A stretch of 64,000 nt of DNA from the NCBI GenBank assembly GCA_964017185.1, contig OZ024880.1, positions 45,955,071 to 46,019,070 on the forward strand, written 5' to 3'. Positions 24,380 through 64,000 of the stretch are shown here, in pieces. The notes under the pieces were generated by a model that did no database searches, had not been told where the DNA came from, and saw only the letters and a program-made list of their open reading frames with translations. This DNA comes from Rugalucina vietnamica (Eukaryota > Mollusca > Bivalvia > Lucinida > Lucinidae). The position numbers and the translations under genes are program-made. Each line of letters opens with the position of its first letter. Position 1 is the first letter of the stretch.

Positions 24380-24458
24380 TATCTCTTTGCAATGTTAAAG
24401 AAGGTTGGTTAAAAGGGCCTTACTTTTGCCAAAATGTAAACTCAATTTTCTGTTCATT

Positions 24459-24515
24459 TTTATCGCACCTGCTTATAGCAGGGTGCGATATAGGAGTCCA
24501 AATTTCTGTCCGTCC

Positions 24516-24546
<31 letters not shown>

Positions 24547-25343
24547 AACATTTACGTCGAAGTTTGGTTTTCTCGACATCAGAGATAGCTGCGAGTCTGA
24601 AACCTTGCATAGTAATTGTCCCTGACATACCCTTCAAGCACGCACCTTAACCCGGTGCCCTTGACCTATATTTCACGGTCCACTGACTTTGAAAATTTTT
24701 ACGTCGAAGTTTTTCGACATTTACGTCGAAGTTTGGTTTTCTCGACATCAGAGATAGCTGCGAGTCTGAAACCTTGCATAGTAATTGTCCTTGACATACC
24801 CTTCAAGCACACACCTTAACCCAGTGCCCTTGACCTATATTTCACGGTCCACTGACTTTGAAAATTTTTACGTCGAAGGTTGGTTTTCTCGACATCAGAG
24901 ATAGCTACAAGTCTGAAACCTTGCATAGTAATTGTCCTTGACATACCCTTCAAGCACGCACCTTAACCTGGTGCCCTTGACCTATATTTCATGGTCCACT
25001 GACTTTGAAAATTTTTACGTCGAAGTTTGGTTTTCTCGACATCAGAGATAGCTGCGAGTCTGAAACTTTGCATAGTAATTGTCCTTGACATACCCTTCAA
25101 GCACGCACCTTAACCTGGTGCCCTTGATCTATATTTCACGGTCCACTGACTTTGAAAATTTTTACGTCGAAGTTTGGTTTTCTCGACATCCGAGGTAGCT
25201 GCGAGTCTGAAACCTTGCATAGTAATTGTCCTTGACATGCCCTTCAAGCACGCACCTTGACCCGATGCCCTTGAACTATATTTCACGGTCTATTGACTTT
25301 GCGCGATGCAGGTGCGATATCGACCTCCGCGGAGTTCTTGTAT
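24459..25343 (+). mobile_element. TIR element with 147-bp internal monomers, copy 2
   Basis: Same ends as copy 1 (TATCGCACCTGCTTATAGCA; GCAGGTGCGATATCGACCTC) with an early (GTCC)n/(GTTC)n run. The marker GCGAGTCTGAAACC recurs at 24760, 24907, 25054 and 25201, exactly 147 bp apart. The first interval, 169 bp, contains an extra 22 bp. Confidence 0.85.
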
Positions 25344-41465: not shown

Positions 41466-43456
41466 GACTATAGCCCCGCTTCTCAGCTTTTTTGCAGGGT
41501 GAAAAAAAACAATGACAGGTAACTATCACAAGCTAGATCTAGTCAATATTGATGCGCATACAAAATTTGGTTGGATTATGTCAATTCGTTCTCAAGATAT
41601 TGAGCAGAAACAAAATTCTGACCTCAATAAAGGGCCATAACTCCATCAAAATTTTGCAAAAAATGAGGGGTAACATCCCAAGCTAGATCTTGTCAATGTT
41701 GATGTGCATACAAAATTTGGCCGAATTCTGTCAATTTGTTCTCAAGATATTGAGCGGAAACGAAATTCTGAAGTCAATCAAGGGCCGTAACTCCGTCAAA
41801 ATGTTGCGAAAAATGAGGGGTAACAATCCCAAGCTAGATCTTGTCAATGATGCTGTGCATACAAAATTTGGCCGGATTCTGTCAATTCGTTCTCAAGATA
41901 TTAAGCGGAAACCAAATTCTGACGTCAATCAAGGGCTGTAACTCCGTCAAAATTTTGCGAAAAATGACGGGTTACAATCCCAAGCTAGATCTTGTCAATG
42001 ATGATGTGCATACAAAATTTGGACGGATTCTGTCAATTTGTTCTCAAGATATTGAGCGGAAATAAAATTCTGACGTCAATCCAGGGCCGTAACTCCGTCA
42101 AAATTTTGCGAAAAATGACGGGTAACAATCCCAAGCTAGATCTTGTCAATGTTGATGTATATACAAAATTTGCTCAGATTCTGTCAATTTGTTCTCAAGA
42201 TATTGAGCGGAAACGAAATTCGGAAGTCAATCAAGGGCCATAACTCCGTCAAAATGTTGCGAAAAATGACGGGTAACAATCCCAAGCTAGATCTTGTCAA
42301 TGATAATGTGCATACAAAATTTGGTAGGATTCTGTCAATTCGTTCTCAAGATATTGAGCAGAAACGAAATTCTGAAGTCAATCAAGGGCTGTAACTCCGT
42401 CAAAATTTTTCGAAAAATGACGGGTAACAATCCCAAGCTAGATCTTGTCAATGTTGATGTGCATACAAAATTTGGCCGCATTCTGTCAATTCGTTCTCAA
42501 GATATTGAGCGGAAACAAAATTCTGACGTCAATCAAGGGCCGTAACTCCGTCAAAAATTTGCAAAAAAATGACGGGCAACAATCTCAAGCTAGATCTTGT
42601 CAATGTTGATGTGTATACAAAATTTGGTCAGATTCTGTCAATTTGTTCTTAAGATATTGAGCGGAAACGAAATTCTGACGTCAATCAAGGGCTGTAACTT
42701 CGTCAAAATTTTGCGAAAAATGACGGGCAACAATCCCAAGCTAGCTCTTGTCAATGTTGATGTGCATACAAAATTTGGTCAGATTCTGTCAATTTGTTCT
42801 TAAGATATTGAGCGGAAACAAAACGTTCACGGAATGACAGAATCACGGAATCACGGAACCACGGAAGGACAGGGTGAATCCAGTATAGCCCCACTTTTCC
42901 AAAGCGGGGCTATAATTAAGGGCCGTAACTCCGTCAAACTTTTGCGAAAAATGACGGGTAACAATCCCAAACTAGATCTTGTCAATGTTGATGTGCACAC
43001 AAAATTTGGTCGGATTCTGTCAATTCGTTCTCAACATATTGAGCGGAAACGAAATTCTGACGTCAATCAAGGGCCGTAACTCCGTCAAAATTTTGCGAAA
43101 AATGACGGGTAACAATCCCAAGCTAGATCTTGTCAATGTTGATGTGCACACAAAATTTGATCGGATTCCGTCACTTCGTTCTCAACATATTGAGCGGAAA
43201 CAAAATTCTGACGTCAATCAAGGGCCGTAACTCCGTCAAAATTTTGCGAAAAATGACATGTAACAATCCCAAGCTAGATCTTGTCAATGTTAATGTACAT
43301 ACAAAATTTGGTCAGATTCTGTAAACTGGTTCTCAAGATATTGAGTGGAAATGAAATTTTGACGGAATAACGGAAGGACAGAATGACGGAAGGACGGAAC
43401 GACGGAAGGACATGGTGAATCCAGTATAGCCCCACTTTTTCAAAGCGGGGCTATAA
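41466..43456 (+). mobile_element. TIR element with 151-bp tandem monomers, copy 1
   Basis: Begins CTATAGCCCCGCTTCTCAGC and ends AAGCGGGGCTATA. About a dozen monomers of exactly 151 bp carry CAATCCCAAGCTAGATCTTG, GTTCTCAAGATATTGAGCGG and CAAGGGCCGTAACTCCGTCA. An extra element end lies inside (42835-42916: a run of GGAA/CACGGAA, then CAAAGCGGGGCTATA), so two elements appear fused. Because 151 is not a multiple of 3, the overlapping 83-codon open frames shift frame from unit to unit and are not genes. Confidence 0.85.
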
Positions 43457-43508
43457 TTAAAATCAGAAAATATGAAAACAAAATAAACTAGAATTGTCAG
43501 AGAATCTG

Positions 43509-45239
43509 ACTATAGCCCCGCTTCTCAGCTTTTTTGCAGGGTGAAAAAAAACAATGACAGGTAACTATCACAAGCTAGATCTCGTCAATATTGATGCGCA
43601 TACAAAATTTGGTCTGATTATGTCAATTCGTTCTCATGATATTGAGCTGAAACGAAATTCTGACCTCAATAAAGGGCCATAACTGCGTCAAAATTTTGCA
43701 AAAAATGACAGATAACAATCCCAAGCTAGATCTTGTCAATGATGATGTGCATACAAAATTTGGACGGATTCTGTCAATTTGTTCTCAAGATATTGAGTGG
43801 AAATGAAATTCTGAAGTCAATCAAGGGCTGTAACTCTGTCAAAATTTTGCGAAAAATGACAGGTAACACTCCCAAGCCAGATCTTGTCAATGTTGATGTG
43901 TATACAAAATTTGGTTGGATTCTGTCAATTCGTTCTCAAGTTATTGAGCGGAAATAAAATTCTGACGTCAATCAAGGCAGTAACTCCGTCAAAATTTTGC
44001 GAAAAATGACAGGTAACAATCCCAAGCTAGATCTTGTCAATGTTGATGTGCATACAAAATTTGGTCGGATTCTGTCAATTCGTTCTCATGATATTGAGCG
44101 GAAACGAAATTCTGACATCAATCAAGGGCCGTAACTCCGTCAAAATTTTGCGAAAAATGACGGGTAACAATCCCAAGCTAGATCTTGTCAATGGTGATGT
44201 GCATACAAAATTTGGTCGGATTCTGTCAATTCATTCTCAAGATATTGAGCGGAAACGAAATTCTGACATCAATCAAGGGCTGTAACTCCGTCAAAATTTT
44301 GCGAACAATAACTGGTAACAATCCCAAGCTAGATCTTGTCAATGATGACATGCATACAAAATTTGGTCGGATTCTGTCCATTCGTTCTCAAGATATTGAG
44401 CGGAAACGAAATTCTGACGTCAATCAAGGGCCGTAACTCTGTCAAAATTTTGCGAAAAAAGAAGGGTAACAATCCCAAGCTAGATCTTGTCAATGTTGAT
44501 GTGCATACAAAATTTGGTCCGATTCTGTCAACTCGTTCTCAAGATATTGAGCGGAAACGAAATTCTGACGTCAATCAAGGGCCGTAACTCCGTCAAAATT
44601 TTGCGAAAAATGACGGGTAACAATCTCGAGCTAGATCTTGTCAATGATGATATGCATACAAAATTTGGTCGGATTCTGTCAATTCCTTCTCAAGATACTG
44701 AGCGGAAACGAAATTCTGACGTCAATCAAGGGCCATAACTCCGTCAAAATTTTGTGAAAAATGACGGGTAACAATCCCAAGCTAGATCTTGTCAATGATG
44801 ATGTGCATACAAAATTTGGTCGGATTCTGTCAATTCGTTCTCAAGATATTAAGCGGAAATAAAATTCTGACGTCAATCAAGGGCCTTAACTCCATCAAAA
44901 TTTTGTGAAAAGACGGGTAACAATCCCAAGCTAGATCTTGTCAATGATGAAGTGCATACAAAATTTGGTTGGATTCTGTCAATTCGTTCTCAAGATATTG
45001 AGCGGAAATAAAATTCTGACGTCAATCAAGGGCCGTAACTCCGTCAAAATTTTGCGAAAAATGACAGGTAACAATCCCAAGCTAGATCTTGTCAATGATG
45101 ATGTACATACAAAATTTGGTCGGATTCTGTCAATTCGTTCTCAAGATATTGAGTGGAAACCAACTATTCACGGAATCACGGAAAGACGGAATGACAGGGT
45201 GAATCCAGTATAGCCCCACTTTTCCAAAGCGGGGCTATA
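43509..45239 (+). mobile_element. TIR element with 151-bp tandem monomers, copy 2
   Basis: Same ends and monomers as the preceding element, about eleven units, ending in CAAAGCGGGGCTATA. The two copies share GAATTGTCAGAGAATCTGAC before the left end, so the boundary may lie there (41443 and 43488). Confidence 0.85.
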
Positions 45240-48430: not shown

Positions 48431-48556
48431 AAACAGAAACAGAACTTTATTAACTTAAGCATATACAGCTCATCGTTAAACAACATATATACAGCACATG
48501 AAACAAAAGGGTGTGTTGAGAGTGGATTACATATAATAGCATTTTAGGTGTACATA

Positions 48557-50010
48557 TGGAACGCCATAGCTGTCTTATGATCTACCAACTTCATTATATG
48601 ATGCACCTTCTTCATTATATGATGCACCTTCATCAGTATATGATGTACCTTCTTCATTATATGATGCACCTTCATCATTATATGATCTACCAACTTCATT
48701 TTATGATGCACCTTCTTCATTATATGATGCACCTTCATCATTATATGATGCACCTTCATCATTATATGATGCACCTTCATCATTATATGATATACCAACT
48801 TCATTATATGATGTACCTTCTTCATTATATGATGCACCGTCATCATTATATGATGTACCTTCTTCATTATATGATTCACCTTCATCATTATATGATGCAT
48901 CTTCATCATTATATGATGTACCTCCTTCATTATATGATGTACCTTCATTATATGATGTACCTTCATCATTATATGATCTACCTTCATCATTATATGATCT
49001 ACCTCCTTCATTATATGATGTACCTTCATCATTATATGATGCACCTTCATCATTATATGATCTACCAACTTCATTATATGATGCACCTTCATCATTATAT
49101 GATGCACCTTCATCATTATATGATGCACCTTCTTCATTATATGATGTACCTTCATCATTATATGATGTACCTTTATCATTATATGATGCATCTTCTTTAT
49201 TATATGATGTACCCTCATCATTATATGATGTACCTTCATTATTATATGAAGTACCTTCATCATTATATGATGCACCTTCTTCATTATATGATGTACCTTC
49301 ATCATTATATGATGTACCTTTATCATTATATGATGCATCTTCTTCATTATATGATGTGCCCTCATCATTATATGATGTACCTTCATCATTATATGAAGTA
49401 CCTTCATCATTATATGATGCACCTTCTTCATTATATGATGTACCTTCATCATTATATGATCTACCAACTTCATTATATGATGCACCTTCATCATTGTATG
49501 ATGCACCTTCATCATTATATGATGTACCTTCATCATTATATGATGCACCTTCTTCATTATATGATGTACCTTCATCATTATTTGATGTACCTTCATCATT
49601 GTATGATCTACCTCCTTCATTATATGATGCACCTTCATCATTATATGATGTACCTTCATCATTATATGATCTACCTTTATCATTATATGATCTACCTCCT
49701 TCATTATATGATGCACCTTCATCATTATATGATCTACCTTCATCATTATATGATCTACCTTCATCATTATATGACCTACCTTCATCATTATATGATGTAC
49801 CTTCATTATTATATGATCTACCTTCATCATTATATGATCTACCTCCTTCATTATATGATCTACCTTCATCATTATATGATGCACCTTCATCATTATATGA
49901 CCTACCTGCATCATTATATGATGCACCTTCATCATTATATGATGCACCTTCATCATTATATGATGCACCTTCATCATTATATGATGCACCTTCTTCATTT
50001 TATGATGTAC
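48557..50010. repeat. 21-bp tandem array, TATATGATGCACCTTCATCAT
   Basis: About 69 units of TATATGATG(C/T)ACCTTCATCAT with variants CTACC, CTTCTTC, CCAACTTC and one 18-bp unit near 48940. Every unit length is a multiple of 3, so reading frames stay open on both strands for up to 500 codons (7-residue repeats such as HHIMMKV, YMMHLHH and SLYDAPS). No start context, splice site or non-repetitive domain is attached, so I treat it as DNA repeat. It directly adjoins the inverted repeat at 50021. Confidence 0.9.
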
Positions 50011-50017
50011 AAACTTT

Positions 50018-50119
50018 ATGATGTAGCGTTTTCTTTATGCACCTACTTCATGATGTAGCGTTTTCTTTATGAGCCGGGTAAAATCACAAGTAAAGATTTT
50101 TACATGAACACCGGTAGAA
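50018..50119 (+). repeat. Left inverted repeat of a possible large element
   Basis: Contains ATGATGTAGCGTTTTCTTTA twice, 32 bp apart, then GAGCCGGGTAAAATCACAAG and CATGAACACCGGTAGAA. Bases 50021-50119 recur inverted at 63905-64000 with two substitutions and one 3-bp gap as far as I can count. Inside the GGTAGAA boundary the flanks diverge completely. Confidence 0.85.
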
Positions 50120-50204
50120 TTTGCTTGTATAATTCACGGTATTGAAGAAGTCAGGAACAAACTCGAGTCTTTTCGTTCCAAGCCATTCCTTCGTCCACGT
50201 TCAC

Positions 50205-51345
50205 AGTAGGGGAGCTGAAGTGAACGAAAATTACGGCACTTGCGTTTTGTACATTGGACGATCGGTCACATGCTAACTGTACCACAGACGATCGGTCACT
50301 TGCTCTTTACATCATTAAAGCAAGTGATATTTGGCATCCTTAAACAATTCTGACACTTGTTTGTTCTATTATCTCAGTAAGTATTTCTATTCGATGACAA
50401 AAACTTTCAATGACAGGTGTTTTAGCTCACCTTAGCCGACGGCTCACAAGGTGAGCTTATAGGATGGCCATGCTCCGGCGTCCGTCCGTCCGTCGTCGTC
50501 GACCACAATTTCAAACTAGAATATCTCAGAGACAAGAAGGCCGATTGGAATCAAACTTCATCAGAAGCACCACTGTGATAGGGGATTTTCTGCATTAGGT
50601 TTTGGACTAGGTAGGATCAGAACTCTGGTTTCCATGGCAACAGGTAGCTCCCATAGAGTTATAATGGGAAAAACGTTGTGAACACTAGCGCCTACATTTT
50701 TGATCGGATCTTCTCATTTTTGCAGGTATCAAGGACATCCATACGATGTCGAATGACTTCGAAATTCGGGTAGATTCGATCATGGACCTTGAGCGTTTGA
50801 AAAAATCCCCATTGACTTACAATGGGAGAGATGTTGTGAACACTCTAGCTAGCTCATTCTTGCAGATGACAAGGGCAGCCATAAGATCTCGGATAAGTTC
50901 GAAATTCAGTGAGATTCGACCATAGACTGCAGAGTTACCTGCCCTTGAGCGTCTGGAAATTGGCTTTTTAGTGTTGTGAACACTCTAGCGCATACATGTT
51001 TGATCGGATCTTCAGAGCCCCTCAAGCGACGCAGCGTCATCGATTTGGTTCCAGGAGGAGGTAACTTATGTAAATATTGAAAGATGTGGCGTATGTAAGA
51101 TTACTGGACTGTTGTATTTGGAAGATAATGTTGCTGAAAAACGATTTTTGTCCGATAATACCCCCATTGACGTTATGACTTAACTAAAAGCCAAATAACC
51201 TATGTTTGTCCACTTCTGTGTGTATGTGACAGAACGTTTCGAAGCGTGCAAACGCAAACAAAAAATCAATAGAGCAAGTGACCGATTCTCCAATGTACGA
51301 AAAGTCAAGAGACGTTCGTTTCCGTTCAACACCCTGTAGACCGTT
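50205..51345. repeat. Inverted flanks around an AGCTCACC element
   Basis: GTGAACGAAAATTACGGCAC, TTGTACATTGGACGATCGGT at 50219-50290 is repeated inverted at 51275-51345 (AAGTGACCGATTCTCCAATG). Between them, 50425-51050 begins TTAGCTCACCTTAGCCGACG with a (GTCC)n run, the left end of the AGCTCACC family also seen at 54100-55434. Confidence 0.55.
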
Positions 51346-51388
51346 GGATACAACCAAATTCTTTACAGCAAAGGTGGATACAACGTTA

Positions 51389-51576
51389 CACGGCGCGTGA
51401 CAAAATGGAGTGCGCTGATTGGAAGACAGATCGATTGATATACACTTTACAGCGGAAAGTCATCGATTTAGATACACTTTACAGCAGAAAGTCCATGACA
51501 ATGAACTTTCCACTGTAAAGTGTATCGAAATCGATCTGTCTTCCAATCAGCGCACTCCATTTTGTCACGCGCCGTG
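51389..51576. mobile_element. Full-length palindromic MITE, CACGGCGCGTGACAAAATGG ends
   Basis: The whole 188 bp folds on itself: 46-bp near-perfect outer arms and inner ATACACTTTACAGC(G/A)GAAAGT repeats inverted as ACTTTCCACTGTAAAGTGTA. It is flanked by TA on both sides, as for Tc1/mariner-type targets. It adjoins the end of the preserved Penelope-like sequence. Confidence 0.8.
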
Positions 51577-53125
51577 TAGGATTGTCAATATTCAAAAGGT
51601 CATCGAGGTACCTAGACATCGAATTAAAAAGCCTCGATAACATCAGATTGGTTGTTATTGTTAAGAGAATCCATGAAATCTCTTTCGTAGCAGTATAAAA
51701 ATAAATCAGCTACGAGAGGGGCGCAATTTGTACCCATCGGAATTCCAACAATTTGTCTGTATAACTTGGTTCCGAATCTGATATAAATATTATCCAAGAG
51801 ATAGGATAAGGCGTCGCATACATTCTGACATGACCAAAGTGTATATCGACTTTGGTCAGAGGAAGTGAAAAAAGCTTTTCTGTCATAACAGGCCATATAG
51901 AGTGAACCATAGTTTTTTAATGCTCTTTCGAAGGTCCACTCAACCAAGTCCAGAAGTTTTTCTTTAATCAGATTATGTGGCAAAGTAGTATACAGAGTAG
52001 AAAAATCGTGTGTAGACAAACTCGTTGCACGGAACCCTCTACATTTTAGTTTACTGAGCACCTCACCAGAATTTTTTATGGACCAAAACCAATTTTTATT
52101 TGAAGTTTCATACACGGTCTCACAGTATCGTATGACATGAGATTTGATAGCAGTAAGACAGGAAGTTAATAATTTAGAAAGTTCAGTGGTAGTACAAGAA
52201 CTAGAATTTGCAATAACTCTAGCTTTATAAGGTCTTTTGTGAAGCTTAGGTAACCAATACATCGTAGGGAGTTTGTCTTGGCCTTCACTGACACGCACAG
52301 AAAACTTAACAGGTAATTCGTTTGAGTGAGCATTAACTACAGATATTTCATCACTATCTGTCTCCTGATAAGCCCTAGTACCATCAAGCTCCTGTTTTAA
52401 GGTGTTAATGTAATGAAGCCTACAAACAACGACAACGTTGTTTGCGGCCTTGTCTGCTGGAACCAAGACATACTTTCTATGAAACTCTTGGATACCCTGT
52501 TTCAAATGCCGAAAGGACGATTTGGGTTTAGGCGGTAAAATGTTGGTATTTTGTGAATAAAATTTTATACGTTTTTCTACAATAGTGAAGATACTACTTT
52601 TCCATGCTTTAAGAGCACCATCCTCAACACCCTCTCGCTTACACCATCGATTACCGAAATCATTCAATGCAGAAGCAATCTCCTCCCTACATTTGTCGAA
52701 ATTAATGTAGGAAGGGAATCTATATTTTGGACCTTCAGAAACAATTTTGCGAATTCTAGAATCCGAAATTATCTTTAAATTTCCAGTTACTATATGTCCA
52801 GTAGGTTGATAAATATATTGTGAATCTTTAAAATCTCAAGAATTAGGAGAATTAGCATGAATATCAAGATCCGAAACAAGTTTATTAAAATTAAAAATAG
52901 TATTTCTGATTGGTTTATTATATTTGTAACAAATAATAGGAGGTTCTGAATTTTGGAAGTACGTAGGAATATCCTGTGTCACTGATTTATCCTGGAATAT
53001 TCTAGGCAAATTAATGAAGTCAATACCTTTGTTAATGAAAGAAATTTTAATAAAATGCCTAATATGATTTGACTGGAAGTCATTCAAGCATATATTGACA
53101 AATGACAAATGGCAACAGTACATGT
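51577..53125 (-). mobile_element. Penelope-like retroelement, decayed partial copy
   Basis: The minus strand encodes much of a reverse transcriptase in which YWLPKLHKRPYKARVIANS, STHDFSTLYTTLPH and IVGIPMGTNCAPLVADLFLY are the characteristic Penelope-like motifs: the PKLHK box, the RT palm start and the PMG box. The longest open part is 51624-52667; an upstream piece rich in N, I and K (52836-53123) probably belongs to the N-terminal region. The copy is incomplete and broken. I see no GIY-YIG endonuclease part. It would be an old insertion inside the larger region bounded by the inverted repeats. Confidence 0.8.
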
Positions 53126-53640
53126 AGTGGCAAAATATGAATTACATGTAGCTAAAATGATTTCAACTTTACATGTATATCTTTTGTCTACAGAAGCATT
53201 TTAATGTATTTGAACAGTCAACTTTCTGTTTAAAATTCTTTCTGTTTTTATCAAAGCTAACAAGACCATCTACAGTCTTAAATGATGTTTTTGATGTATA
53301 ATGTAAAGTTATAAGTCAAATACTTGAAAATGCACACCTTATTGATTATAAGTAAATGGCTTATTATGATAACTACACCATTATACATGTAGGTTTAGTA
53401 GATAAATAACTAAGTTCTTGGCTCTATTCATCTGTGGTTCTGAACTATCTTTTGCATTTAAAATACTGTTGAGTGTTGACATTCATACAGGCCTATGGCA
53501 TTGTGTTTTTAATTTACTAAGTATGAATGTTCACTTTATCAAGCACACCTCTATTCAGCAAGCACCTGTTTTAAGCAATCGATTTTAGTGTTTCCCATGG
53601 CCACTTGCTTAAGGCAGGTTAGACTGTATACTATTTATCT
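53126..53640. other. No feature seen
   Basis: AT-rich spacer without a recognised gene or repeat. Confidence 0.3.
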
Positions 53641-53894
53641 TCACCCCTCATTTAATTTCTTAAGCCTCTCTGTATGAACAGCAAAGCACAATTTTCGCGA
53701 AAGCCTCTCAATGACCAAAAGATCCAGCTGTTTCGCGGATTGAAGTTCCTCTATCTGACCACAATCTATTATCAGTTTGATTAAGCTATCCTTTGTTGGG
53801 AATACAGTTCTCCAGAATTCTGAACAAGTTCTGCTTACTATATAGTCCTTTAAGATCCTGTAGGGTTCTTTCCTAAATGGAGTTCCTAAAGAAA
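53641..53894 (-). CDS. Unassigned possible terminal coding exon
   Basis: The minus strand carries TGATTTTCAG (acceptor at 53896-53895) or, 9 bp on, TTTCTTTAG, then about 80 open codons to a TGA at 53643-53641. The peptide includes TPFRKEPYRILKDYIVSRT, CSEFWRTVFPTKDSLIKL and ends LCFAVHTERLKKLNEG. It has no ATG near its start, is balanced in composition and is not in a repeat I know. It lies between the inverted repeats on the same strand as the integrase gene, so it might be a 3' exon of a second gene of that element, or an exon of a host gene. I do not recognise the family. Confidence 0.4.
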
Positions 53895-54099
53895 CTGAAA
53901 ATCAGGTAAAACAACAATTATACTGATTTCAACAGACAATTGAGTGACTTAAATTCAACACCATCAGTTATCGACCTTCTAAACACATTAAACCATTAAA
54001 ATGCACGATTCAAATCAGTTTAATTACGCCAAACATGGCATTAACATCATTTTGACGTTGTTGTTGCCTGACTAACACCGATCCTATTCCTATACCAGA

Positions 54100-55434
54100 G
54101 GACCATTGGTCCTGAGAACGCTCACCTGAAGCCTGATCTTGGAGTATTAAGTCGTAATGAAATGACATTGACCTTGAATACTCACACACTTTATTGACTT
54201 CATAAGTTGTCTGCATCTGCAAAGTTTCAGGTCTCAGGCTGCAATCGGCCCGCCGGTTCTGGAGAAGATTTTTGAGTGTTTTTATCATATATGGGCGTGG
54301 TGGCCATCTTGGTCATGTGACCCAGATTTCGCGATCAAACTTTGGTTCCCCCTACCCATGGATGCTCCACATAAAATTTGGCTTTCATTGGCCAAGCAGT
54401 TTCAGAGAAGAAGATCTTTGAAAAGTGTGTATGGACAACAGACTGGCCAAGGTCAAGAGATGACCTTGACCTATATTAATCAATACCTTCATCTACTCCA
54501 TTAGTTGTTTGCATCTACCACTTTTCAGGCCTCAGGCTGCAATAGTTTTCAAAAAATCCATAGTTTTCACTTCTTCCTATGTAAAAGCCTATGTTTCCAA
54601 ATTTGACCTTGCCATAAAATAGGTCAAGGTCATCCAAGGGTCATCATTTTATCAAACTATGATGGGCTGAGGTACTCAATGCTACATACAAAGTTTCGTG
54701 GAAATCGGCCCATCGGTTCTGAAGAAGAAGATTTTTGAGTGGTTTTATTCATATATGGGCGTTGCGGCCATCTTGGTCATGTGACCTGGATTTCGCGATC
54801 AAACTTTCGTCTCCCCTACCCATGGATGCTCTACATAAAATTTCACTTTGATTGGCCAAGCAGTTTCAGAGAAGAAGATCTTTGAAAACTGTATGGACAA
54901 CAGACTGGCCAAGGTCAAGAGATGACCTTGACCTATATTAATCACATACCTTCATCTACTCCATTAGTTGTTTGCATCTACCACTTTTCAGGCCTCAGGC
55001 TGCAATAGTTTTCAAAAAATTCCATAGTTTTCACTTTTTCCCATGTAAAAGCCTATGTTTCCAAATTTGACCTTGCCGTAAAATAGGTCAAGGTCATCCA
55101 AGGGTCATCATTTTATCAAACTATGATGGGCTGAAGTCCCCAATGCTACATACCAAGTTTCGTGGAAATCGGCCTACCAGTTCTGGAGAAGAAGATTTTT
55201 GAAGGGTTTTTACCATATATGGGTGTGGCGGCCATCTTGGTCATGTGACCTGGATTTCGCGATCAAACTTGAAATGCCACTACCCAAGGAGGCTCCATAT
55301 AAAATTTCAACTAGATCGGCCAAGCGGTTTCAGAGAAGAAGATCTTTGAAATTGTGGACGACGGACGGACAGACGGACGCCGGATCATGGCCATCCTATA
55401 AGCTCACCTTGTGAGCCTTCGGCTCAGGTGAGCT
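54100..55434 (+). mobile_element. AGCTCACC-family element with 464-bp tandem units
   Basis: The right end is CACCTTGTGAGCCTTCGGCT then CAGGTGAGCTAA, preceded by GGACGGACAGACGGACGC. About three tandem units are marked by ATGGGCG(T)GG at 54291, 54755 and 55219, exactly 464 bp apart, each with CCATCTTGGTCATGTGACC and GAGAAGAAGATCTTTGAAA. The left end is unclear. Confidence 0.7.
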
Positions 55435-56061
55435 AAAAAAAACTGGCTTTAATGTTTTTCTAGCGCAAGAGGTTCACAAATGGTAATCTGTATCCGCAAA
55501 CTTTGTTGCATTTTTTTACTTAACGTTTGCTTCGCGTCAAGTTTCAATAAATGATGTTTCTTGTCGTTGTCCTTGAAACCGTTAGTAATCTGGGAAAATT
55601 TTTGTGACCTTATGTGCAACACCAGTGTCAACGATTGACCACAGAAAGAAAATGACACAAACGTCATTTACCAAGGCTTAGAATAACCGTTAATTTTTAA
55701 TTGGCTTTTTAACGTCAGATATCGAGATAAACATGCCTCTTTATCGACGTTTTGTGTGTGTTTTTCCACCAACCCTTTGCGGATTTAATGTTTATGTATC
55801 CAGCAGTTACACTTCAAATGAATTTTGATCGTGATTGTCATTTTATTGCCCGCTGGCTTGAAGAAATTGCAAAATCACATAAACTGACGTTAAACGTTTA
55901 TAAAGCCACTTTTTGATTCAAAATTGCTGTGATCGCAAGTTTTGTGTCAAGTAAAGTGTTTTAAATCAGTAACGACCTAAGTAACGATGTAGTATTGTCT
56001 AAAACAACAACACAAAATCAATATGAAAATAATTGCTAAACTTATTTCTCTCAGTATAAGG
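55435..56061. other. No feature seen
   Basis: About 0.6 kb of non-repetitive sequence, no convincing gene. Confidence 0.3.
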
Positions 56062-56298
56062 TGAGCCACCGCATGAGAAAACCAACAATTGGCATAGGCG
56101 AAAACAAAGCCGCAGATTAGCTTTGCAGTAACTGTACAGCTGATCAGTGCCTTTGTTTTTGCTACACGGATAGTACAATTCATCTTCTTCTTAAATCCGA
56201 AATTTCAAGATTCTAGCCTGCTTCTGTGGCTGCACAGCGCGGTTTGTGTCAGACCTGGTCTGAGCCCAAAATTGTTGGTTTTCTCACGCAAAGGCTCA
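56062..56298 (+). mobile_element. Hairpin MITE, TGAGCC family
   Basis: Complete: TGAGCC ... GGCTCA with GG/GG duplication. The stem is mismatched in part (GATTAGCTTTGCAGTAACTG / TACAGCTGATC). It lies 59 bp downstream of the integrase-like stop. Confidence 0.85.
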
Positions 56299-56357
56299 GG
56301 TATTAAAATGATTAGAATGTTTGATTTTCATAGCATGTATGCAGTGTTGCTATGGTT

Positions 56358-59300
56358 TTATATTAAATCACTACTGAGAATCTCCACTGCTCTTAAAAAT
56401 ATGTCTATCCCAAAGTTATCACTGTACCAGTCTTCAGGACATCTGTGTTCAAGGGTCTGTTTGATTCTCTCTCCAAAATGTAATTGTATTGATTCTACAA
56501 TAGGCCTGGTGTCTGTATCAGTTTCAATGTCCAGACCAGATGTGTCATCTTCTTCCATGAACTCGTTATCATTCACAGGATTGTTAATCATGCTAGATGT
56601 ATACAATTGCAAAGGTGAAGTACGTACAGTTCTTAATCTATGGCTTGCCCAGGCTTCTTTCCAGATACACAGCTTTTTATTGATTTTTTGTGTGTACACA
56701 TAATGCAATGCAAATATATGCAACTCATTCATGACATCTAAAATTCCTTGATCTTCCATGTAATAGAATAACTGGTAATAGTAATCTAGAACACCTTCAT
56801 AAAGGTCACGCCAAAGGCGTTCAATACGTTGATTATGGACGCTTTTGCCTGTCAAAATACCACTAGGACCCCGCTTTTCAATCATAAAGTCTGCGATTTC
56901 AACATTTTCCATGCCCTTATCAGTTCTCACCCGCAAAGGCAAGCCATACTTTTCGACACCTTCCTTGAAGCATAAAAGAAGGGAAGATGCTCGGATGTTA
57001 TTCAAACACTTAACAAATGTAACTAATCGACTAAAGCCATCTATGCCAGCTGCGATGACAAAAGACCATCTGATTAGTTTATGGTTGGTATCTACATGCC
57101 ACAGATGATTTGCTCCCTGTACCATGTAAACTCGTCGATGTAGGCGTCCTCTTCTTCTTGCACCGACACCAGTACTATCTATTTCGTGCACGACATCTCT
57201 CAGCCGAAACCTTTGTATCTGTAACAGGTAATATCATTAAAACTAAACTGAAGTGAGTTAATGCTCTATAATACCGACCAAACCCATCCCAAACAAGTTG
57301 CATAACTAGAAATCATAGCAATCAATGGTCCTTAGCTCACCTGAGAGATTTGGTCATTGTAAGCTTAATAATGATCATGTTAATTGGATTCAGCATCAGA
57401 GAAGAAGACTTTTTCATGTGTTTACTACTATACGGCTATGGCAAATAATGATGCCCCTGGGATGTGGCCAGTTTGTCCCAAGGGGCATGGTTGGCAGGAT
57501 TTATGAAATAATGTTGTTGTCGTTTGACAGCTGCATTATATCAATACAGTTAGTTAAGATGGAGCTTGACAGCACTGAGGCAGGTACTACAGAAGACAAA
57601 AATTCTATCATACTTAAACATGGTACGAGGGTCATATGGAAACTTTGTAGCATGGCTTCATAATTCTTTTGTTCCCCCTTTAAAAGGATGCTCAACAAGA
57701 AGTTAACCTTTGAATAGCCAAACCGTTTCAGAGTTGTTTGAATACTAGAAAAAGTGCCTTGAGGGGCACGATACCCCCAGCCCGTATTCTAGCCCCCCCC
57801 CCCCACCACCATCACCACCAAACCCCTCCATCCAGGTTATGGGCCCAATGGTTGAAGTGAAATAAGACTGTGAAGAAGGCTTTTCCAGGAGAATGGGGGG
57901 GGGGGGCAATTTTCATGGAACAGGTCTCAAGTCTAATATCATCAACTAGATCCTTCCTAATGTTCACTATAAACTTTAACCATAAACCTTAACAATTTCT
58001 CTTAACAAACAATTTCTAAGTCTGTGAACTTGACCATAACGTCACTGAGGTAGAGCTTAAAACTCAGACGAATATCTCACAACAGGCATAGTATCAACTA
58101 CATCTATCCATCCACAAGTTCCAGAGATATAGACTTATAAAACTTTAATCAAGAACTTGAACAAAATTGGTAGGGTAGGGTTGGGTAGGGTAGGGTCGGG
58201 TCGGGTCGGGTTGGGTAGGGTAGGGTCGGGTCGGGTCGGGTGGGGTGGGTGGGGTGGGGTGGGGTGGGGTGGGGTAGGGTACAGCATAAAACTTCATACC
58301 AATATCTTACAAGCGTAGTACATGTACCAAGTATGAACAGCAAGTAACACAATAAATTGTACTTTTTTATAAGTGTGCTAAGCTGTGACCCCTAGCCCCA
58401 CCCCAGGCATGGACCCTGGGGTCTGATGTCATGAAATGAAAGCTTACCCTATAGTGTGCCTATGGTGCAAATATGAATGGCATCTCATGAGTGGTGGTCA
58501 AGATATGGACACTTAACACAGTAAATTGCACATTTTTATAATTGACCGAAATTGTGACCTCTAGCCCCACCCCCAAGCATGGATCCTGGGGTCCGATGTC
58601 ATGGAATGAAGCCAACCCTATAGGGTAGCTATGGTCCATGTATGAATGGCATATCACAAGTGATTATTAAATATGGACAATAGTAAAGTAAATTGTACAT
58701 TTTATAAGTGTCCTAGATTGTAACCTCTAGTCCCACCCACGGGCATGAACCCTGGGTATCAATGTCATGGAATAATAGCTAAGCCTACAGGATATCTACA
58801 GTCCAAGTATGGATGGTATCTTGGAACTGGTTGTCAAGATATGAACATTAACACAGTAAATTGCACATTTTTATTTGCGCCCTAAATTGTGACCTTTAGC
58901 CCCTCCCCATGGCATGGACCCTGGGGTCCGACATCATGGAATGAAAGGTAACCCTATAGGGCATCTATGGTCCAAGTATGAATTGCATACCACAAATGGT
59001 TGTCAAAATATTGACATTAATACAGTAAATTGCACATTTTTATAAGTGCCCTAGATTGTGACCTCTAGCCCCACCCACGGGCATGGACCCTGGGGGTCCG
59101 ATGTGATGGAATGAAAGCTAACCCTATAGGGTGTCTATGGTCCAAGTATGAATACTAAATCTGATTAGTGGTTGTCAAGATATCGACTTAGAGAGAAGAA
59201 CAATAACACAGTCTACTGCACAGTTTTGAGGTGACCTACATGTTGACCTCTAGCCCCACCCCCGGGCATGAACCCTGGGGTCCCATGACATGGAATGAAA

Positions 59301-61707
59301 GCTAATCATATAGGGTACCTATGGTTCAAATATGAATGCTTTCTGACCACTGGTTGCTGAGATATACACCTCTAGAGAAACTTTAACCAAAAACTTTAAC
59401 ATGAATTCCACTAACGCGACGGAAGTACTAACAAACATACGAACGAACGAACACACGAACGAACGAACAGACAAATGGAAAACAAAAACTATATACCGCC
59501 TCGGCATAAATGCCGGGGGTATAATTATGAAAAAAAAAACAATAGAGCCCTGGGTCAGTGGGAATCATTCTGTTGGGGGGGGGGGGGGGGGGAAGAATTC
59601 AAACAGAAATATTCTGTCCATATGCCCATTCAAAGCAAGACTTCCCCCATTAAATGGCATTTTACCAATCTGAGTTGACCTTGTTATAATATAGGTCAAG
59701 GTCATCCTAGGGTCATGATTTATACAAACTTTGTAGAGCTCCATTCCTTATTGCTTCATGCCAAGTTTCAAAATCATAGGCCATCTGCTTCTGAAGAAGA
59801 TTTTTAAAGGTTTTTGGTATTTATAGCCATGGTAGCCATTGGGGCCATCTTGGTCATGTGACCTGGGCCATTTATACAAACTTTAGTTCTACTCCAAGGA
59901 TCCTCCACATGAAGCTTGGCTTTGATTGGTCAAGAAGTTTCAGAGAATAAGATCTTTGTAAATAGTTGACGGACGCCAGAGACTGGATATATACTATACG
60001 CTTACCTAATGAGCCTAAAGGCTCAGATGAGCTAAAAACAAATGAACAGTCGCAATTAAAACAGGCAGATGTTTGCATAAATTTGCTTTTTTGCAAGATG
60101 TTTGCAATAAATGTATCATGATAGTAAAAGCTTTTTTTCTCTCTCTCTTTGTCGCATAAGGACTTCTGATATATGTTTCTATAGCAGGCATGTATAAAGG
60201 CATAAAGATTGAAATATCCTAGACGTCCTGAGCCAAAATGAGACCTAGTTCTAACATATACTGAGCCAAACTTATAACGCAACATCAGTTTATTTTTAAT
60301 TTTATTCACTGGAGCGTTATCAAATAAACTTTCTCTTAGCTAAATTAGATTGCCGGACCATCGATCCATCTCACAACATCTAGGTTGTAACATTCCGTGC
60401 TATGCGACTCAAGAAATCAATCATTTTTCAGAGGTAGGGTCTTGGCAAAAAATGAAATGCATTGTAATTTTTCCAGAACGCGACATGTGACATGAATTCG
60501 TACCCTTGAAATTAATGCCGGTTTTAAGGAATACTCTTGCTCCATTTTGGATGACTCATTTTACCGTCAAACGATCAATTTTGTTTCATTTTGAACAGAG
60601 TTGAAGACTCATTTTCACGTTGAACCAGTAAAGTTTACTCAGATTTTAGCATAAATTTGTTACAGACGTTCCTGATGCAACAATTGCAAGTTATTGTGTT
60701 TTCAAACAATGCTGAATGATGGAATGAACATGTTTTCACAAAGGTTTCATTAAAAACATTGACCATTTGAAATTTTCACCAATTCCATTTTCCATTGTGT
60801 TGTATGGAATGTTCAGTATTAAACGCAAAATTTTCAACGATGCCAACTTTGTTTTGAAATTTAGGGTACAAATGGAAGACATTTTGCAATTACCTGATCG
60901 TACCTCACTTGACGATCCGTGTTAAAACTGACTTCCAGAATCTCTCAGGGGGCGCATGCCACCAAATTAACCGGTTTGACCAATCAGATTCGAGCTCAGT
61001 GACCCAGGCTCTGAAAACCAAATTTTTTGTACCCAATTCATTTATTGGCAATTGCTGACAAATATATTTCGGGTATACCGTCGTACATTACATCAAAATG
61101 CGAAAAATATTACATAACCATGTTGCGTTGTTTGGCTCAGTATATAATGAGAAAAGTAAGGGAACTGCTATCTCTTTGGTGTATAAATCCCTTGAGCTAA
61201 CGCTTCCATTACAGTATGACAAATTAATACCTTTATATTCCTTTGTTTCAATATTTGGTTTAGCATAGTCTCTCCACAATTCGGAAAGTCATTGATAACT
61301 TCCTGGACAACAGCAATCAGTTGTTCATCCTCAATATCGGTAAAGTTGGCTTTCGTTAATCCAAATGCACGCATTCGTCTGTATACTGTACTTTCTGAGA
61401 CCGATAATAGTTTAGCTATTTCCTTTATTAAAAACCCTGTTTCAATCAAAGTTTCTAAAGTAGCTTTTGATATGAGGAATTCTAGTGGCCCAATCCCTGT
61501 AGAAGGTGCTTTTCTTGGTTGGTAGCTGCCATAGTTCAAGCACACTCTCCTCAAGTTCATAACGTCAGAACGGTTTACCACCCCAAGGGAATTCATTTCA
61601 TACCAGGAAAGTTTGCAAACTATATCTGGAGACACTTTCTCTGCTTCAAATGCAGGTGCTAACCTCTCTAAGCCCAGGTTTTGCAAAATGTTTTTCATTT
61701 GATTCAT
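56358..61707 (-). CDS. SAM + HTH + DDE integrase-like protein, two exons
   Basis: Exon 1 61707-61231 (159 codons) and exon 2 57218-56358 (286 codons and stop) are joined by a phase-0 intron of 4012 bp with a consensus GT donor and a CCTGTTACAG acceptor; total 445 aa. Residues 5-58 resemble a SAM domain (LGLERLAPAFEAEKVSPDIV). Residues 92-114 are a helix-turn-helix (IKEIAKLLSVSESTVYRRM). The integrase core follows HLWHVDTNHKLIRW and IDGFSRL. Probable acidic triad: D202 (HVD), D259 (RTDKG), E292 (NQRIERLWRD). Similar integrase-core proteins are known as multicopy genes in fish, cnidarians and molluscs, with the WH.DGNHKLIRW signature. An in-frame stop 25 bp upstream supports the ATG at 61707. 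The gene looks whole. It may be a transposon integrase or a co-opted gene; the inverted repeats at 50021 and 63905 favour the first. Confidence 0.85.
57760..59525 (+). mobile_element. Element with tandem monomers of about 169 bp
   Basis: Marker CTAGCCCCACCC recurs at 58392, 58561, 58727, 58896, 59065 and 59250 (spacings 169, 166, 169, 169, 185), each with GGACCCTGGGGTCCGATGTC and CAGTAAATTGCACATTTTTA. The right end has a (GAAC)n run and TATACCGCCTCGGCATAAAT. Confidence 0.7.
58168..58281 (+). repeat. GGGTA/GGGTC/GGGTG pentanucleotide run
   Basis: About 22 GGGT(A/C/T/G) units in a row, strongly G-rich on the plus strand and capable in principle of G-quadruplex formation. It is internal to the 169-bp array and not a telomere. 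Confidence 0.85.
60034..61230. other. No feature seen in this part of the intron
   Basis: Non-repetitive as far as I can tell. Short open frames without support. Confidence 0.3.
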
Positions 61708-62019
61708 TTTACGAGTCAATTGTAGTATATTCTACGACATGTAATGTTAGCTGGTATCAGTGGCACAACCTGAAATTGAATAATAGATTCTAAAAGTTTC
61801 ATGATATGATGCAAACTAAAATGCAACCTGCAGAAAATGTGCGATGGAAAAGCTGAGAATTTCTGTGGGGATCACTGTAACAATGTGAATCTCTGGGTCA
61901 TGTGGCAGGCAGTCATCGGGCCTTGCACTGGTTTAAAGGTATGTTATTTGTTTACTATTATTTTAAAGCAAAATCTAGATTAGATACTGTCCCGGGACAC
62001 TGTACCTAAACAAGACCGC
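61708..62019 (-). promoter_or_regulatory. Upstream of the integrase-like gene
   Basis: Presumed 5' UTR or promoter by position. An upstream exon is possible because GTAG precedes the open frame. No motif is claimed. Confidence 0.3.
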
Positions 62020-62763
62020 CGCAGAGGTCGTTATCGCACCTGCATTGGGCAAAATAACTAAAACCGTAAAATATAGGACAAGGGCACCAAGTCAAGGTGC
62101 ATGCTTGAAGGGTATGTCAAGGACAATTAGTATGTAAGGTTTCACACTCACAGCTGTCACAGGTGCAAAGAAAACCAAACTTTGACCTAAAAATTGACAA
62201 AGTCACTGGACCTTGAAATATATCTCCAGGGCATCAGGTCAATGTGCGTGCTTGAAGGGTATGTCCAGGACAATAACTATGCAAGGTTTCATAATCGCAA
62301 CTATCATTGATGCCGAGAAAAACAAACTTTGACGTAAAAATTGACAAAGTCACTGGACCGTGAAATATAGGTCAAGGTCATCGGGTCAATGTGCGTGCTT
62401 GAAGGGTATGTCCAGGACAATAACTATGCAAGATTTCATAATCGCAGCTATCACTGATGCAGAGAAAAACAAACTTTGACGTAAAAAATGACAAAGTCAC
62501 TGGACCGTGAAATATAGGTCAAGGGCACCAGGTCAAGGTGCGTGCTTGAAGGGTATGTCCAGAACAATAACTATGCAAGGTTTCATAATCGTAGCTATCA
62601 GTGATGCAGAGAAAACTAAACTTTGACGTGAATGTCAAACTTTGACGTGAATGTCAAACTTTGACGTAAATGTTGATGGACGGATGGACGGACGGATGGA
62701 TGGACGGACGGACGGAAATTTGGACTCCTATATCGCACCTTGCTATAAGCAGGTGCGATAAAA
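62020..62763 (-). mobile_element. TIR element with 147-bp internal monomers, copy 3
   Basis: Inverted orientation relative to copies 1 and 2: ends GAGGTCGTTATCGCACCTGC and GCAGGTGCGATAAAA, with a GGAC-rich run before the right end. The marker G(C/T)AAG(G/A)TTTCA lies at 62134, 62281, 62428 and 62575, exactly 147 bp apart. Confidence 0.85.
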
Positions 62764-62895
62764 ATGCTTAACAATTTTGTGCAGTCTTCACAAAAAGTGC
62801 CGGACAGCAAAACAAAACCGGCAAAATTTCATTCTGTCCAGCAGAAACTTTTAAGTTGACAAAAGTTAGGCAAAACTTATCAAGGTTATAAGCAA

Positions 62896-63370
62896 ACCCA
62901 GAGGACCAAAGGTCCAGAGAGCACTCACCCAAGGTCCGACCTTACAACACTTACTGAAAAAGAAATGACTTTTAACGTTAAATATGCATGTATCTTCATC
63001 AACTTAAGTACTTGTCTCCATCTGCAGCAAACTTTCATTTCTAAGACTAGAACAGTTTCCAAAATATCGATTTTTATTTTTTTTCTCCATGTATTTAAAC
63101 CTAAGTTTCCAAAATTATATCGATTTTTATTTTTTTTTTCTCCGTGTATTTAAACCTAAGTTTCCAAAATTGACCTTGTCATAAAAAGTCATGATCATTT
63201 GAGCAAACTAAGATGGGCTGGAGACCCAAATACCACCTACAAAGTTTCGTCAAAATCGGCCTGCAGGTTCTGAAGAAGATTTTCTGAGCATGAGAGCATG
63301 CATGGTGGCCATGTTGGGCATGTGACACAGATTTTGCGAACAAACTTTTGATCCCCTACCGATGGATGAT
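62896..63370 (+). repeat. AGCTCACC-family fragment
   Basis: CCAGAGGACCAAAGGTCCAG, ACTAAGATGGGCTGGAGACC, CAAAGTTTCGTCAAAATCGG and GGTGGCCATGTTGGGCATGT match the 54100-55434 element. A ATATCGATTTTTATTTTTTT segment is duplicated at 63065 and 63117. Confidence 0.6.
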
Positions 63371-63904
63371 CCACATTAAATTCAGATTTTATCTTTTGCG
63401 GATACACAGGATGGTTTGTGTAAAAACCAAGCACCCAATAATAAGATGAAACAGTTTAGAATCTGAATAATAATGAATGAGTGCTCGTCTCCCTTGAAAA
63501 AGTTGAAAAAACATTCAGACATTCCAGACATCAAACTCAGACTTCAGCGGAAATTATGCAGAAATGTACTTTCTCACAACATAATTCTTGCTAAATGAAT
63601 TATATGACACAGTTAGAGTGGCATCTTTGACTTACAGGTTGATATTTGAATACAAACAGCATTTATCAGCCACGAAAATATGTGACAACTAGCCTGTGAA
63701 AAATGCAGTTGCAAACATCTCCAAAAATACACTAAATACGGAACTGACACTTAGCGGATATCTGAACTAGATGCTCGTGCAGCTTTCTGCATCATTAAAA
63801 TACCATGACATTACCTGAAGAATAAGAGAGAAGTGAAAATATAAATCGTTTCTGTATTCATGCTTTGTTGCGCACAATTAACATATAATCTCGCGAGACG
63901 AGTG
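63371..63904. other. No feature seen
   Basis: No gene or repeat recognised up to the right inverted repeat. Confidence 0.3.
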
Positions 63905-64000
63905 TTCTACCGGTGTTCATGTAAAAGTCTTTACTTGTGATTTTACCCGGCTCAAGAAAACGCTACATCATAAAGTAGGTGCATAAAGAAAACGCTACAT
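63905..64000 (-). repeat. Right inverted repeat of a possible large element, cut by window end
   Basis: TTCTACCGGTGTTCATGTAA ... CCGGCTCAAGAAAACGCTAC ... GGTGCATAAAGAAAACGCTA is the complement of 50021-50119, about 96% identical. The window stops exactly where the left copy passes into the 21-bp array. Confidence 0.85.

Follow-up and report, generated by a model that had tools for sequence, protein, structure and literature searches.

What kind of element is bracketed by two inverted copies of a 99-bp repeat in the genome of the lucinid bivalve Rugalucina vietnamica, and does the integrase-like gene between them mobilize that element or travel in it as a passenger? The stretch analysed, here called the window, is 64,000 nucleotides long and corresponds to positions 45955071-46019070 of contig C12 (OZ024880.1) of a 1.09-Gb genome in 47 contigs. 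An earlier note, made from the letters of the window, had proposed a large foldback element, with tandem-repeat ends and an internal recombinase gene, and had named two tests: reading on beyond the right edge of the window and searching the assembly for further pairs of the repeat. Both support that proposal. With a probability of about 0.92, the locus holds a cut-and-paste DNA transposon, potentially autonomous and active in the recent past, that is of the IS3EU/GingerRoot type, has a foldback architecture and is one of a set of copies that we call subfamily A.

Where does the element begin and end? The two copies of the 99-bp repeat, at 50021-50119 on the plus strand and 63905-64000 on the minus strand, form the inner domains of its terminal inverted repeats; the left one has an internal direct repeat of 32-bp period. 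Aligned in inverted orientation (50021-50119 against 64000-63905, within the window), they are 94.9% identical over 99 columns (E 9e-40), a little below the first estimate of about 96%, and there is no third full copy in the window. Taken alone, this pair proved little, since inverted pairs are common there: 34 distinct pairs of at least 80 bp are spaced more than 2.5 kb apart, of which three reach 90% identity, the 99-bp pair being the highest, and direct pairs of the same description number 28. Genome evidence was thus needed to decide. To the left, as first noticed, the repeat gives way to an array of 21-bp units (48576-50010, plus strand; consensus TATGATGTACCTTCATCATTA; 68.5 copies by Tandem Repeats Finder, with conserved units), which is followed outwards by the 21 bp of the tip, TATGGAACGCCATAGCTGTCT, in which the palindrome TATGGaacgCCATA lies (48555-48575, plus strand). 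To the right, the arm runs on past the edge of the window through 97.6 copies of the same unit, then an inverted terminus (C12:46021146-46021166) that mirrors the left one, as far as position 66096 in window numbering (C12:46021166). The element is therefore 17,542 bp long, from 48555, two bases from where the end of the array had first been placed (48557), and it begins TATGGAACGCC and finishes GGCGTTCCATA. The hexamer TGTACA stands at 48549-48554 and again, exactly, after position 66096, as a 6-bp target duplication. A solo element made of the array and the 99 bp was also considered and rejected: when a duplication was looked for, the sole 6-base match, TATAAT, lay off the boundary, and the element is bounded at its outer ends.

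The same structure recurs across the genome. A 102-bp query covering the 99-bp repeat, for which 40 of 102 candidates were scored, returned at least 40 matches, 26 of them at 95-100% identity and 14 at 79-81%. The close matches resolve into 11 inverted pairs, in each of which a left-type copy (99-100%) is matched with a right-type one (95%), and four are left unpaired (three left-type, one right-type). When the outer termini are used instead, 28 exact ends and one end with a single mismatch give 14 pairs, with an end on C11 left over. These 14 paired copies of subfamily A span 4.3-45.2 kb, and they fall into eight large ones (17.5-45.2 kb) and six short ones (4.3-7.7 kb). All eight pairs of at least 17.5 kb, measured by their outer ends, enclose the integrase-like gene, and none of the six short ones does. 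The middle of the element is missing from all five short copies that were read end to end, and the deletion breakpoints differ among them (two identical copies on C13 being counted once); the short copies are internal deletion derivatives.

Are these copies insertions? Every left end that was read (13 of 13) begins with the same terminal 21 bp followed by 21-bp units, and the terminal inverted repeats of the fully read large copies, 1.4-2.3 kb long, all consist of a unique 21-bp tip, a 21-bp array of variable length and the 99-bp inner domain. Both flanks were read in 13 copies, the 14th (C12:15.5) being read at one end only; 10 of the 13 have an exact 6-bp target duplication, and 12 have the termini TATGG..CCATA. 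Empty sites support insertion in two cases. For a copy on C3, the joined flanks are open in one frame across the full 197 codons that were translated, with stops in each of the other five frames; by eye, this frame resembles a long interspersed element (LINE) reverse transcriptase. For a copy of subfamily B, described below, the joined flanks align across the junction to a 147-bp satellite of the window (e.g., at 85% over 172 columns with one gap). The four other fully read large copies differ from the window copy by 2.4-2.9 substitutions per kb, counted over aligned blocks longer than 300 bp with more than 95% identity (11.3-13.0 kb in all), and from these sequences the A family looks young and recently active.

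The gene itself occupies two exons on the minus strand, and the earlier description of it as an intact two-exon SAM-HTH-DDE (HTH, helix-turn-helix) gene holds. Exon 1 (61231-61707, with a predicted start codon at 61707-61705) has SAM-like and HTH domains; the match to SAM_1 is weak (E 0.017) and below its curated cut-off, as is the match to the IS3 model NF033516 (E 0.003). HTH families, but no integrase zinc domain (HHCC), are among the 25 families listed of the 28 that exon 1 matches. A predicted intron of about 4.0 kb (57219-61230), with the donor AAG|GTATTA and the acceptor ACAG|ATACAAAGG, separates it from exon 2 (56358-57218), which ends in a stop codon and carries a DDE catalytic domain with the spacing D-56-D-32-E (PF24764, E 9e-73). 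Exon 2 also matches the IS481 model NF033577 (E 7e-7, under the curated cut-off) and, weakly, rve. Both exons are open in all five large copies that were fully read, the other four being 99.6-100% identical to the window copy over exons and flanks, and the splice sites are conserved, except for an extra base by the acceptor in the C4 copy.

When exon 2 was searched against the genome (134 of 168 candidates scored), nine matches reached at least 97% identity among those scored, and the next best had 49% or less. Eight of the nine sit in the eight large A pairs, each free of stops, and the ninth falls in a truncated remnant on C11, whose alignment starts at the right arm and stops inside exon 2. 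No close host homologue was found among the scored genome matches. In viral contigs, no match to an exact pattern from the 99-bp repeat was found, nor any relative of the integrase; one stretch there fits a peptide pattern, unconfirmed.

To which group does such an element belong? In the part of PMC10045372 that treats them, IS3EU/GingerRoot elements have TA..TA termini and usually 6-bp duplications, are related to bacterial IS3/IS481 and are not well separated from IS481EU. The element described here has TA..TA termini, a 6-bp duplication, an IS3/IS481-like DDE domain and no HHCC N-terminus; its termini, duplications and catalytic domain together fit the IS3EU/GingerRoot superfamily. It also has the defining organization of a foldback, with long inverted repeats in which tandem repeats lie between a terminal and an inner domain.

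How might the arrays serve the enzyme? We compared 1206 units from nine A copies with 61 units from one B copy, leaving out the duplicate C13 copy, two right arms without an inner domain and units more than six bases from the consensus. The two consensuses agree at 17 of 21 positions. Among A units, TATGAT and TCATTA are 93-100% conserved, and positions 7, 8, 12, 13 and 15 vary more; among B units, TCATTA is conserved to the same degree (93-100%), and variation falls on the fourth base (54%) and on positions 9, 10 and 15. The junctions between units form a dyad, TCAT-tat-ATGA, and the tip of the element is itself palindromic. Binding of the Galileo transposase to sites in tandem repeats has been shown (PMC3688188, in the sections bearing on this point). 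A plausible course of events would be that the protein made from the gene attaches to the tip and uses its HTH to bind the array units with their dyad; that many bound copies of the protein join the two ends across the 14-42 kb between the arms; and that the DDE domain cleaves at TA..TA and links the ends to target strands at staggered positions, leaving a 6-bp duplication. The passenger repeats of the interior would be carried along. The long inverted arms would favor internal deletion as well as recombination between copies, which could invert chromosome segments.

Several observations weigh against this account. The copy at C1:79.4 lacks a target duplication and ends in CCATC, and in two others of the 13 A copies the duplications are reciprocally exchanged. 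The C4 copy has three amino-acid differences, besides one residue at which the window copy alone differs; together with the extra base by the acceptor, these mean that not every copy need be active. In the A units, positions 9-11 and 14, which lie outside the dyad, are 92-99% conserved, about as much as the dyad, so that conservation alone does not single it out, and the array units are candidate binding sites, suggested by conservation and by the precedent of Galileo. The placement in IS3EU/GingerRoot is a fit of termini, duplication length and profile matches rather than the outcome of a tree. Finally, transcription and splicing of the gene and transposition of the element are predictions read from sequence.

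Could the true transposase lie elsewhere? The element would then be a large non-autonomous foldback, carrying the integrase-like gene as a passenger or as a host gene acquired in an ancestor. What gives this idea some substance is the wider family. A 27-base terminus pattern, allowing up to two mismatches, was found 214 times in the genome, compared with none for a reversed control pattern, and its exact ends define two further subfamilies. Subfamily B has 86 exact ends, 64 of which form 32 pairs and 22 of which are unpaired; the pairs span 0.5-27.8 kb (median 10.0 kb), and in 31 of the 32 a left-type tip is paired with a right-type one. In subfamily C, the exact ends number 78 and give 31 pairs (62 ends; 8.1-41.8 kb, median 15.0 kb) and 16 unpaired ends. 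As a control, neighboring ends within 60 kb stood in the minus-then-plus order once in B and never in C, and on the same strand twice in each. One B copy that was read has a 6-bp target duplication, CAGTGC. B and C share the terminus and outnumber A, and none of the 134 scored matches in a genome search with PF24764 (150 of 242 candidates scored) falls within any of the 63 B and C pairs. About 5.3 kb of one 12.3-kb B copy was also covered by scanning four frames, none of which had a Pfam match. Something may therefore act in trans, or an unseen enzyme may exist: B and C may be non-autonomous giants that owe their movement to the A enzyme or to a relative, or they may carry an enzyme missed by the PF24764 search. 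The many evident passengers of the interior likewise suit a passenger gene. However, in the five large A copies read, the gene has open exons and hardly varies, and in the search it is stop-free in all eight; its class agrees with the termini and the length of duplication that are reported from IS3EU/GingerRoot, and no close host homologue turned up. We consider a captured or passenger gene improbable, though it is the strongest of the rivals.

Elements of the Polinton/Maverick kind have an integrase, inverted repeats and 6-bp duplications, and a size of 17.5-45 kb between inverted repeats would be compatible with these or with another self-synthesizing, virus-like element. However, 13 of the 15 frames of at least 100 amino acids that overlap the element in the window (the window copy, up to the window end) were scanned against Pfam, and no match to a DNA polymerase, protease or packaging ATPase was found among them; the integrase matches PF24764, with rve matched only weakly. 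Such an origin is very improbable. Least credible of all, and excluded as far as it repeats the earlier note's own alternative, is a chance opposition of two unrelated dispersed repeats with a host gene or separate transposon between them, for which the abundance of dispersed repeats in the window and the four close 99-bp copies without a partner might speak, but which is contradicted by the 11 inverted pairs, by complete mirror termini with matching duplications and by the presence of the gene in all large and no short pairs.

If the transposon reading is kept, a broader scheme can be put forward, although only tentatively, and we would sooner bet against it as a whole: that one transposase, encoded only by the few A copies, moves A, B and C alike (at least 77 paired copies of up to 45 kb), the majority of which have no recognizable transposase gene; that the 21-bp arrays are banks of dyad sites by which an enzyme of a small-transposon lineage pairs ends tens of kilobases apart; and that the arms drive megabase inversions.

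One candidate for such an inversion was found on C13. Two identical 4,326-bp copies, C13:31049969-31054294 and C13:33304762-33309087, lie in opposite orientation 2.25 Mb apart. The duplications at the ends of each copy do not match each other, but they match reciprocally between the copies (TATCAG and AATACT), and flipping the segment between them restores both. Exchanged duplications of this kind are a candidate signature of inversion by recombination between copies, caught with the target duplications still swapped; they may alternatively have come from misassembly. A genome search with one cross-joined flank site gave 41 matches, of which two were the flanks and 39 covered the right-hand side; none spans the junction, so that the exchanged duplications make the whole case. 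In Galileo, inversions via recombination between copies are described in the relevant part of PMC3573991.

What else does the element carry? Its interior is mostly passenger repeats, and the interiors of the copies are colinear, with common passengers. These are a short palindromic insertion resembling a miniature inverted-repeat transposable element (51380-51585), also found in other family copies; a broken frame of 403 amino acids on the minus strand (51624-52835); and a repeat of 147-bp units with a GGAC run (62008-62766), also present outside the element at 11370-12381 and 24455-25341. The broken frame, which had no Pfam or PDB match, is taken as a dead passenger and is probably what was earlier thought to be an unassigned exon of the element; it looks like a broken reverse transcriptase, Penelope-like in its motif. 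The 147-bp-unit arrays, flanked by a short GGAC/GTCC run, resemble non-autonomous Helentron-type repeats. Apart from the two transposase frames, the 11 other scanned frames had no Pfam match above the curated cut-off, and the window had no match to RNA families at gathering thresholds. Larger copies have extra insertions (e.g., 11.4 kb in the C4 copy), and four of the five fully read large copies have, by the site at 53874/53875, a sequence like the inner arm of subfamily B, which the window copy lacks.

Some further observations concern the surroundings and relatives of these elements. A subfamily-B copy on C1 sits in a satellite similar to the 147-bp-unit arrays. The contig C11 alone accounts for 42 of the 134 matches to PF24764, an unusually large share for a single contig, and many of these are broken. 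More distant relatives of the integrase (31-45% identity) lie in inverted pairs, with 9-13 kb between the partners (C3:1767297+/1776234-, C3:40272033+/40283689-, C6:59342467+/59353815- and C6:8285829+/8299092-), as though each arm of a long inverted repeat held the gene. Other integrase-like matches, in frames of 130 amino acids, are each paired with an opposite-strand match 16-24 kb away (C16:16206101/16222622, C9:46453118/46469769, C7:46157724/46139908, C3:66845809/66829766 and C4:70436945/70461364); these may belong to another family of large elements that has two integrase-like genes. A 151-bp tandem array at 41511-45160 of the window, with about 24 units in two blocks and a 452-bp higher-order period, is unrelated to the element.

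How does the element compare with known systems? With Polinton and Teratorn it shares tens of kilobases between inverted repeats; it differs in that no viral replication or packaging genes were found in the frames scanned here and in that much of its length consists of passenger repeats. In the portion of PMC6431247 on which this comparison draws, Polintons are typically 15-25 kb and up to 40 kb long. With IS3EU/GingerRoot as described in the part of PMC10045372 cited above, it shares the TA..TA termini, the usual 6-bp duplication, a DDE domain near those of bacterial IS481/IS3 and the lack of the HHCC zinc motif, whereas the inverted repeats built of kilobase-scale 21-bp arrays, and the copies of up to 45 kb, are features of the present element that are not described in that part. 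A foldback-type or giant IS3EU element was not found in the open-licence PubMed Central papers searched, although a Repbase entry may exist. A load of 17-45 kb in an IS3EU-type element suggests that giant foldbacks can be built and moved by a transposase lineage with small bacterial elements among its relatives. In such genomes, scattered "satellite" arrays of 21-bp units may be the ends of transposons.

A structural parallel is Galileo, of the P superfamily in Drosophila. According to the sections of PMC3573991 and PMC3688188 that describe it, Galileo likewise has long, internally repetitive inverted repeats that hold transposase binding sites, arrays of unequal length on its two sides, copies derived by deletion, chimeric copies whose duplications do not match, and inversions to which it gives rise. 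By the same accounts, it differs in its P/THAP transposase, its 7-bp duplications, its inverted repeats of about 0.3-1.2 kb, compared with 1.4-2.3 kb in the fully read large copies here, and its repeats of about 210 bp, compared with 21 bp; no THAP domain is among the matches listed for our element, which has PF24764 and 6-bp duplications instead. Foldback (FB), Tetris and the Mutator-type foldbacks share the division of each arm into terminal, tandem-repeat and inner domains (PMC4079207, in its description of these elements). The duplications of Tetris, in the same description, measure 8-10 bp, and no autonomous copy of it is known, whereas an intact putative transposase lies inside the present element; the 6-bp duplications and the PF24764 catalytic domain likewise set it apart from FB and Mutator. 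Most foldbacks seem to be Mutator elements, with exceptions, and the form has been suggested to evolve independently in different lineages (PMC4079207, in the same part). The foldback form would thus gain a lineage other than Mutator and P, and since its putative enzyme is intact inside the element, the role of the tandem arrays becomes directly testable.

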